Below are positions 6,383 to 9,644 of a stretch of DNA of 64,000 nt, piece by piece. The stretch is from Fusobacteria bacterium ZRK30 (lineage in GTDB: Bacteria > Fusobacteriota > Fusobacteriia > Fusobacteriales > Fusobacteriaceae), in contig CP102405.1 of assembly GCA_024628785.1 (NCBI GenBank), positions 1,550,001-1,614,000 on the forward strand, in the 5' to 3' direction. The position numbers and the translations under genes were made by a program. The first letter of the stretch is position 1. Each line of letters starts with the position of its first letter. The notes beneath the pieces were generated by a model. It did no database searches and had not been told where the DNA came from. It was given only the letters and a program-made list of their open reading frames with translations.

Positions 6383-6538
6383 TTATATTACTCCGCTTAT
6401 TCCCCTGGCATAACGAGCCGTTTTTTTCTTACATAATGGGCAAATCTTCTTATATGGAACTCCAAGAGAATCCACAGCTGTTTCAAATTTTTTTTTACAT
6501 TTTAAGCATTTTACTATTTTAGTATTTTTATTATTCAT
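6383..6538 (-). CDS. Small zinc-ribbon protein, 51 aa
   Basis: Short open frame of 51 residues starting MNNKNTKIVKCLKC, with a TAGGGGG ribosome site 4 nt before the ATG. It carries two cysteine knuckles, CLKC (C11/C14) and CPLC (C33/C36), spaced as in a rubredoxin-like or zinc-ribbon fold, and a basic C-terminal tail. It probably binds one zinc or iron ion. Such proteins often bind nucleic acid or act as adaptors, but no function can be assigned. It is transcribed away from the selenoprotein-like gene. Confidence 0.6.
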   Translation of the reverse strand: MNNKNTKIVKCLKCKKKFETAVDSLGVPYKKICPLCKKKTARYARGISGVI

Positions 6539-6739
6539 ACGTCCCCCTATTTGCTTCAAAATTACTATGTTTTTTAATAAATATTTTAAATTGTCATTAT
6601 TATTATATAAATAAAAACTTAATATTTCCTTATACTACATTTGGGGTTATTTTCCTTTCATTTTTACAAATATAAAGGAAAATACTCAACTTACTGGTAT
6701 ACAGTTATGATAAAAATATAATTATAAAGGAGGTAACAT

Positions 6740-6979
6740 ATGAAACCTATACTATCAATTGAGTTTTGTACATCATGAGGATATTCAGAAAAGGCAGTGG
6801 ATGCTATTGGAGCCTTGGTAGGGTTCTATAAAAATTATTTTTTAGAATTTAAACTTATCCCTTCATCTGGAGGTGTATTTGAAGTTAGATTTGAAGATAA
6901 ACTTTTATTTTCTAAAAAAAAAGTGGGAAGATTTCCAGAGTTAGATGAGTTAATTGAACTTGTAAAAAATGAAATATAG
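6740..6979 (+). CDS. SelW-like (Rdx family) selenoprotein, UGA at codon 13
   Basis: The ATG at 6740 is preceded by AAAGGAGG at good distance. The frame reads MKPILSIEFCTS, then TGA at 6776-6778, then GYSEKAVDAIGAL and on to a stop at 6979, 79 residues in all. The TGA sits exactly at the second position of the CxxU/CxxC redox motif of the Rdx family (SelW, SelT, SelH; thioredoxin-like fold), and the rest keeps the family pattern: a Gly-Gly turn in PSSGGVFEVRF and a C-terminal helix. It is therefore read as selenocysteine rather than a stop. A possible bacterial SECIS hairpin follows the UGA. Family members are small thiol oxidoreductases of unclear substrate. If the UGA is not decoded, only a 12-residue peptide would be made. 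Confidence 0.8.
6791..6816 (+). promoter_or_regulatory. Candidate bacterial SECIS hairpin
   Basis: Downstream of the UGA, AAGGC (6791-6795) can pair with GCCTT (6812-6816); inside it AGT pairs with GCT around a GGAT loop at 6799-6802, leaving a 6-nt bulge on the 3' side. The loop starts 21 nt after the UGA and begins with GG, in line with the known requirement for a loop G at about 16-37 nt. The upper stem is short, so this is a candidate only. Confidence 0.45.
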
Positions 6980-7040
6980 AAATAATATCTTTAGAAAAAT
7001 AAATTAATCATGAATAAAATTTTAAGAAAATTAAAGCTAA

Positions 7041-7070
7041 AAAACCAGAGATATCTATCTCTGGTTTTTT
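7041..7070 (+). terminator. Terminator after the SelW-like gene
   Basis: AACCAGAGATA pairs with TATCTCTGGTT around a very short loop, followed by a T run. It lies 62 nt after the SelW-like stop. Confidence 0.85.
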
Positions 7071-7206
7071 GTATTTAATAAAAACTATTGAAATTTCTCA
7101 TCCTTCTATCCTTGATTTTTATTATAAATATATATAATATATATTTAATTTGATTTTAAGATTATTAAAATCAAAGTTTAAAGAGATTAAAAATAATTCT
7201 GAAAAA

Positions 7207-7283
7207 GGCAAAGCAGGAGAAATTCTGTGACGCAAAACTAAAGGGTCTAAGTCTATATTATTTAGATATGACAGCCAGTTGCC
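7207..7283 (+). ncRNA. Cyclic di-GMP-I riboswitch aptamer (GEMM-I)
   Basis: P1 is GGCAA (7207-7211) with TTGCC (7279-7283). P2 is CAGGA / TTCTG capped by a GAAA tetraloop, as in the Vibrio Vc2 aptamer. The hallmark GACGCAAA follows at 7229-7236. P3 carries CTAAG and TATGA on opposite arms, matching the tetraloop receptor that docks the GAAA loop. AGCC next to the closing strand is the second ligand-contacting segment. All landmarks of the class are present in order. It is followed by a terminator and then by a c-di-GMP hydrolase-type gene. Confidence 0.93.
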
Positions 7284-7294
7284 AAAACTTTTTT

Positions 7295-7337: not shown

Positions 7338-7430
7338 TTTGCCTAATTTAAATATTATTCTGTATGAGTTTTAAGATTAACTTAATAAATAGGAATTGTT
7401 AGATACTACTAAAAGCATTTGGAGGTTTAT

Positions 7431-9644
7431 ATGCATAAAATTTTATGGCCAATTTTTTTCTTTTTTTATATTTCATCCTTTGGGATGGATACATTAAAAA
7501 TTGAATTGACTGAAGAGGAGAAGGAATGGATTAAGCTGAATCAACGTAAAAATATAACTATTTATATGGATGAAAACAGGGGAATATTGAATTATCATTC
7601 AAACGGACGAAGAAGGGGAGTTTTTCCTGAAATTATTAAATTTCTGGAAAAAATACAGGACTAAAATTCCAGGTGATTAATGAAGAAACTGAAAAATTTG
7701 AAAGATCTGTGGACTCAGGTTTCCCTGATATCGTGATGGGGGTAGAGGATTACAAAAGAAACAGTAAAGAATACGTTTATCTTGAAAAATCATTGAATTT
7801 AGATGGGGTTATGATAACCAGAGATGATTATCCGTCCATTGATTTTAAAACAGATAATTCCGATAAAACAATTGTCTGCATGGAAGATGATCAAATAAAA
7901 AATAAAATTTTAAAAAAGTATGGAGAATCAGTAAAATTGATTGTTAAACCAACCAGAAAGGAAGCTATGGATTCTCTTTTATCGGGAGAGGCAGATATTT
8001 ATATCGAAGATTATCAGGATGGATTGAAGTATTTAATTGAAAATCCAGAAATGGAAGCAAAAATAAACTATCTTTCCAATGACCTTGAAACGGATTATTA
8101 TATAGGGGGAAAATCAGAATATAAACAGTTATTAGTTATGATTCAAAAATTAATAAGCCGTGCTGATATAACAATGAAATTCTTTTATGAGGAATCTTTA
8201 GAATATACAAAAAATAAAATAAAGATTTCGGGGGAAATAAAAAAATATATGAAAGAGAAAAAAGTTGTAAAAGTTTTTGTACCAAAACCAAAAATGCTTC
8301 CTCAGCTTTATTATATAGATGAATTTGGAAATCAAAATGGGTTTTTGGTAAATTATTTTCATGAAATTAGAAAAAATATTGGGATTAAAAATAGTTTTAG
8401 AAGAGAGTGATTCATCTTCTGGGTTTGATATTAATCCCTTTGTATTGTCGGTAAATGGGAAAGAATTAAATGATGAAGAGTACCTTTCTACAGAACCGTA
8501 TATGCAAGCTCAGTTATCAATTTTTAATAGAGAAGATAAAGGATACATCCCATACTTTGATGATTTGGAATTCTATAAGATAGCTGTGGTAGAAGGATCT
8601 CTTGTTGAAAAATATCTTTTAAGCAAAGGTTTAAAAGATAATCTGATAAAATTTGAAACAATTAAGGGAGCTATGACTGCTGAGACTGAAGGAGGTGCAG
8701 ATATCTTAATCGGTAGGGTACAACACATTGATCAGTTCCTAAAAAAATATAATATGACAAATATAAAAGTAGCAGGAATCTTACCAGATAAGATAGATTT
8801 GAGATTTGGTGTTCCTAAAAAAGATGAAATACTATTTTTTATGATAAATGGTTTTAATAATGATTTTTCTTATGGGATAAAAATTAATAAAAAAGAATTT
8901 TTTACTAAAAATACAGAAATTGCAAAGGACTATAAATTTTCTATTATTATATTATTGGTTTCAATCCTTGGATTTTTAGGAATATACATTCATTTGAAAA
9001 GGTTTAAAGTAGTATATAATAAATTAAAAAATATAACGATCGGTCTTGTGGAAACTCTGGAAAGTGCAAATAGTTATAATGATGAAGATACCGGTGCACA
9101 CATAAAACGATTAAACCAATATTCGGAGTTATTGGCTGAAGAGCTAAAATTACCAAATTCTTTTGTAAATGAAATAGGACTTTATGCCTCCCTTCATGAT
9201 ATAGGAAAAATAGGAATTTCAGATGCTATTTTGAAAAAACCGGGGAAACTGACTGAGGAAGAATTTGAGATCATGAAAACTCACATAGAAATCGGTTATA
9301 ACCTTATAAAGGATTTGGATGTAAGTCCAGTGGCATCAAATATAGTTAGGTATCATCATGAAAAGTGGAATGGGAAAGGTTATGGAAAAGGATTGAAAGG
9401 AGAAGAAATTCCCGTAGAAGCCAGGATAGTGGCATTGTCAGATGTGTATGATGCCTTACGGCAGGAACGAGTTTATAAAAAAGCTTTTACCCATGAAAAA
9501 TCTATGGAAATAATAATTTCCGAGAGCGGTAAACATTTTGATCCCAGAATAGTTGAAGTCTTTATAAAAAAACATGAACATTTTCGAGATATATTTGAAA
9601 AGAGTAAGGTAGATTTTTCCAATAAAAAAAATTCTTTAAAGTAA
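7431..9644 (+). pseudogene. SBP(x2)-TM-HD-GYP sensor phosphodiesterase, two frameshifts in A6 runs
   Basis: Three overlapping reading frames together make one protein. It has a signal peptide (MHKILWPIFFFFYISSFG), two periplasmic solute-binding domains of the SBP_bac_3 type, a membrane helix (SIIILLVSILGFLGIYIHL) and a cytoplasmic HD-GYP domain with HDIGKIG and HHEKWNGKGYG. HD-GYP proteins hydrolyse c-di-GMP. The first shift is at an A6 run near 7653, where one extra A would restore EKNTGLKFQVINEE. The second is at the A6 run 8371-8376, where one fewer A would give EIRKILGLKIVLEE. The start is the ATG at 7431 behind GGAGG. Causes could be true decay, transcriptional slippage or homopolymer sequencing error; the protein is otherwise well preserved. 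Confidence 0.8.

Follow-up and report, generated by a model that had tools for sequence, protein, structure and literature searches.

The question raised by this locus is whether a UGA codon inside a small reading frame ends that frame or is read as selenocysteine (Sec). The locus lies in a stretch of 64,000 nucleotides (the window) from the genome of a Psychrilyobacter (G000 in the following), and based on the evidence presented below it is almost certain that the gene is that of a bacterial SelW-like selenoprotein. Its features are as follows.

Positions 6728 to 6734, forward strand: Shine-Dalgarno sequence (AGGAGGT) with 5 nt between it and the ATG, the same in the genus relative G007
Positions 6740 to 6979, forward strand: SelW-like (Rdx family) selenoprotein gene, ATG at 6740, 79 residues with Sec13, stop TAG at 6977-6979
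Positions 6776 to 6778, forward strand: in-frame UGA (codon 13), presumably read as Sec in a CxxU motif, from the homologue alignment and the Sec machinery
Positions 6797 to 6799, forward strand: in-frame GTG, start of a 60-aa ORF under the standard code, with an equivalent ORF in relatives
Positions 7038 to 7071, forward strand: intrinsic terminator, bidirectional, downstream of selW

The gene and its product

With TGA read as U, the product is MKPILSIEFCTSUGYSEKAVDAIGALVGFYKNYFLEFKLIPSSGGVFEVRFEDKLLFSKKKVGRFPELDELIELVKNEI, with the redox motif C10-T-S-U13, where the UGA stands at the redox site of CxxC/CxxU proteins. In Pfam, the read-through protein falls in Rdx (PF10262) at 1.5e-18 (67.2 bits against a cut-off of 22.6), and since the match spans residues 6-77 of the protein and positions 3-74 of the 74 in the profile, it crosses the UGA. 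The protein also matches NCBIfam TIGR02174 CXXU_selWTH (59.1 bits, cut-off 34.2). The top NCBIfam match by bit score is NF041051 SelTWH_Campy, with 68.5 bits, which is below its cut-off of 88, so that the protein is not a member of that equivalog. A Pfam Lgl_C match (22.9 bits against 20) falls on the same residues as Rdx and was disregarded as spurious. Among the proteins of solved structure, the Rdx proteins 2fa8, 3dex, 2ojl, 2oka and 2obk match by sequence (2fa8 at 1.3e-7), and from this homology, which extends over nearly the full length, the 79-aa product is predicted to have the thioredoxin-like Rdx fold; the window protein for its part has the UGA. Thus, the first-pass annotation, which had seen a strong ribosome site, a TGA placed exactly at the Rdx redox position and an intact family sequence beyond it, is borne out on these points, with the TGA aligning with an invariant Cys/Sec column.

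Because a strong Shine-Dalgarno sequence precedes the gene and a terminator follows it, selW is probably transcribed on its own; the terminator search gave three terminator-like sites, where 0.1 would be expected. In the window, an in-frame TGA interrupts ten frames that are open on either side of it; the family-library test was applied to the selW frame alone, and the other frames look, by eye, antisense or upstream. A short frame upstream of selW on the reverse strand (6400-6540) appears, also by eye, to encode a small four-cysteine zinc-ribbon-like protein.

Bacterial SelW-like selenoproteins have been described from the Sargasso Sea and from bacterial genomes (PMC1088965, PMC1794560). With those of PF10262 and TIGR02174 the window gene shares the CxxU motif with UGA at its second redox position, the SECIS-like hairpin and the existence of Cys homologues, and it is an ordinary representative of the known SelW family, carried by a Psychrilyobacter. 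In the tree the members from Fusobacteriota group together with support of 96/90, and their motif is C-x-S-U-G-Y, in contrast to the more common C-x-x-U-N-Y.

Selenocysteine machinery and homologues

The genome of the window has the genes that are needed to decode UGA as Sec. On contig C1 (236313-240638) selA, selB and selD are neighbours, with scores of 588, 368 and 386 bits, respectively, each above its curated cut-off, and one tRNA-Sec (selC), above the Rfam cut-off and with the anticodon tca by ARAGORN, is located at C1:284609-284701. In addition to selW, at least nine further genes belong to known selenoprotein families and contain a UGA, giving at least ten in total, with TGA at the expected place of the motif in each case:

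selD (locus L018): own in-frame TGA, CSGGGUTS
GrdA, two genes (this and the following among loci L066-L073): ECFVUTAAGA
GrdB-type, three genes: STUGTCTRCG
PrdB-like, one gene: AGUGTCHR
FdhA-type molybdopterin oxidoreductases, two genes: HCARLUHS

Here the names GrdB, PrdB and FdhA are our assumption, made from the Pfam family together with the Sec motifs of these proteins. All of these genes would be shortened under the standard code, so that at least ten genes are liable to truncation in annotation by standard gene callers. The absence of selA, selB or selC, which had been named beforehand as grounds for rejecting the Sec reading, is thus not what is found, and the suspicions that the organism makes selenoproteins and that other UGA genes had been missed both gain support: it is very likely that this Psychrilyobacter makes selenoproteins.

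The homologues lead to the same reading. When 196 genomes, some related and others more distant, were searched, 20 homologues were obtained outside the window genome, where the codon is TGA in 16 (G007 and G001 of the same genus, Propionigenium maris and 13 distant genomes) and a Cys codon, TGT or TGC, in the other four, with the downstream sequence intact. In the alignment of 21 sequences, positions 10 and 13 are invariant when C is read for U. The gene selA is above its cut-off in the homologue genomes except for G001 and G127, which are both incomplete, and G167, which has a Cys form. Within Fusobacteriota, a clear SelW match occurs in only 6 of 98 genomes, namely five of the eight Psychrilyobacter genomes (that of the window included) and P. 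maris. Four of these (the window genome, G007, G001 and P. maris) have Sec, and the other two, both Psychrilyobacter with selA, have Cys, encoded by TGT in G005 and by TGC in G002. In the tree G005 and G002 form a pair (93/89) that is nested in the fusobacterial cluster, the remaining rows of which are all Sec. The simplest reading would be a change from Sec to Cys in organisms that keep the Sec machinery, with the reverse change also possible, as trees of 79 residues are weak. Sec/Cys changes of this sort have been reported earlier (PMC1794560).

Hairpins downstream of the UGA

We now consider which mRNA structure could recruit SelB. Two hairpins follow the UGA.

Positions 6793 to 6805, forward strand: proximal SECIS hairpin, stem GGCA/UGCU closing a GUGGA loop that begins 18 nt past the UGA
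Positions 6808 to 6828, forward strand: distal hairpin, candidate element, UGGAGCCUU-GGU-AGGGUUCUA, 9 bp, loop 38 nt after the UGA

The proximal hairpin is near the UGA and has a small apical loop with G among its first two positions, as in bacterial SECIS elements, the window hairpin alone being weak: it has 4 bp and -2.6 kcal/mol, 16-17% of synonymous recodings equal it, and the folding energy after the UGA shows no excess over shuffled sequence (z 0.26 to 0.48). Its counterparts in the other Sec genes are AGCA-GUGGA-UGCU (G007), AGAGCA-GUGAG-UGCUCU (P. maris) and AAGAGC-AGUU-GCUCUU (G001), so that all four Sec genes of the Fusobacteriota retain the hairpin, whereas G005 and G002, whose genes have Cys, lack a counterpart with G at the loop start. 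When the Sec genes of the window, P. maris and G001 are fitted jointly, synonymous recodings give an equal fit in only 0.37% of cases. Moreover, six of the other selenoprotein genes in this genome have a hairpin whose loop starts 16-18 nt after the UGA; the simple hairpin search gave none for the GrdA and PrdB-like genes, where bulged stems may have caused hairpins to be missed. The support for the proximal hairpin therefore consists of its spacing and its conservation, with the energy not counted. As regards the earlier description of a SECIS-like hairpin that lies 21 nt after the UGA and has a loop starting with GG, a hairpin near the UGA is indeed present, the loop being instead GUGGA at 18 nt, and it convinces by spacing and conservation rather than by itself. 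An extended stem around it, AAGGC...GCCTT, was considered and rejected, since G007 has AAAGC...GCCTT, where a pair is broken and the 4-bp stem is kept.

A different possibility is that Sec is inserted as proposed and the main SelB-binding element is the distal hairpin, alone or together with the proximal one. The distal hairpin has -8.2 kcal/mol, and few synonymous recodings match it (0.7%, and 0.03% for P. maris); it is present in G007 and P. maris, and a GGU loop also occurs in two GrdB-type genes of the window genome. Between G000/G007 and P. maris its stem shows one compensatory pair (C-G to U-A), two changes from G-U to Watson-Crick pairs and one outer pair lost. However, these pair changes, which come from three sequences only, are not in excess over shuffles (169/500); in the other selenoprotein genes of this genome, all six hairpins found place the loop at 16-18 nt, not at 38 nt; and the distal hairpin was found neither in the Cys genes nor in the Sec gene of G001, which has the proximal hairpin only. 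When both hairpins are taken jointly over six sequences, the measures are above those of nearly all shuffles, in a small set where Sec and Cys forms are mixed. Based on these data, we consider it improbable that the distal hairpin is the main element, and similarly doubtful that the SECIS of the fusobacterial selW mRNA consists of two hairpins, with the strong distal GGU hairpin helping or replacing the weak proximal one in SelB recruitment.

Decoding of the UGA and the probable task of the product

Two further readings do without Sec. In the first, the functional product would be the short 60-aa protein started at the GTG, with the part upstream left untranslated. It is true that this is the only sizeable ORF under the standard code, and the first-pass annotation had rightly anticipated that a standard caller would start at GTG 6797 and lose the active site, the GTG being in frame and the 60-aa form lacking the whole CxxU motif. 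But this loss, together with the strong Shine-Dalgarno sequence before ATG 6740 and the invariance of S6, E8, F9, C10 and S12 in the six-sequence fusobacterial alignment, makes the short product very unlikely. The second, that of a pseudogene or sequencing error in which an ancestral TGT/TGC Cys codon mutated to a genuine TGA stop or was read wrongly, is less probable still: TGA is one base from TGT and TGC, two genus relatives have these Cys codons, and a gene close by in the window carries frameshifts, but TGA is kept in independent assemblies (G007, G001, P. maris and 13 distant genomes), the window genome decodes Sec, and because the 16 TGA and four Cys homologues all have conserved downstream sequence, with no decay after the codon, comparison of the homologues excludes decay and error as the source of the UGA.

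In the Sec reading, which we prefer, translation would start at ATG 6740, and the complex of SelB, GTP and Sec-tRNA(Sec), held by the downstream SECIS hairpin, would decode UGA 6776-6778 as selenocysteine, as the computed features suggest. Elongation would then continue past the UGA to TAG 6977, giving a product of the Rdx fold, with Cys10-x-x-Sec13 as its redox pair, that is expected to act as a small thiol/selenol oxidoreductase. Its probable task would be defence against oxidative stress, to which we give about an even chance, because relatives carry selW directly behind a superoxide reductase gene. This order, with desulfoferrodoxin (superoxide reductase) first, selW next and pyrK- and pyrD-like genes after it, is found in G001, G002 and G005, where desulfoferrodoxin is backed by family search and pyrK and pyrD are named by eye:

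Desulfoferrodoxin-selW segments in three Psychrilyobacter genomes: L024, 1013-1673; L025, 1474-2127; L026, 1483-2147

In G000, G003, G004, G006 and G007 desulfoferrodoxin is in the equivalent setting and selW is absent there; G000 and G007 have selW at another place, in a setting that is common to both and is not beside superoxide reductase. Of the three genomes with the desulfoferrodoxin-selW order, G002 and G005 have Cys yet keep selA. In the titles and abstracts of the papers searched we found no link between bacterial SelW and superoxide reductase and no report of a Psychrilyobacter selenoprotein. With the same gene occurring as Sec and as Cys forms in close relatives, in some of them beside superoxide reductase, a natural comparison is offered, by which both the reason for the retention or loss of Sec and the task of SelW in anaerobes become testable.

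Finally, we note that downstream of selW a c-di-GMP-I riboswitch (7197-7286, 81.1 bits) precedes a gene at 7419-9644 with an HD-GYP-like end. This gene is one frame of 733 codons in G007 and three frames in the window, with a base missing at about 7650 and an extra base at about 8366, and the split reflects either a broken gene or assembly errors.
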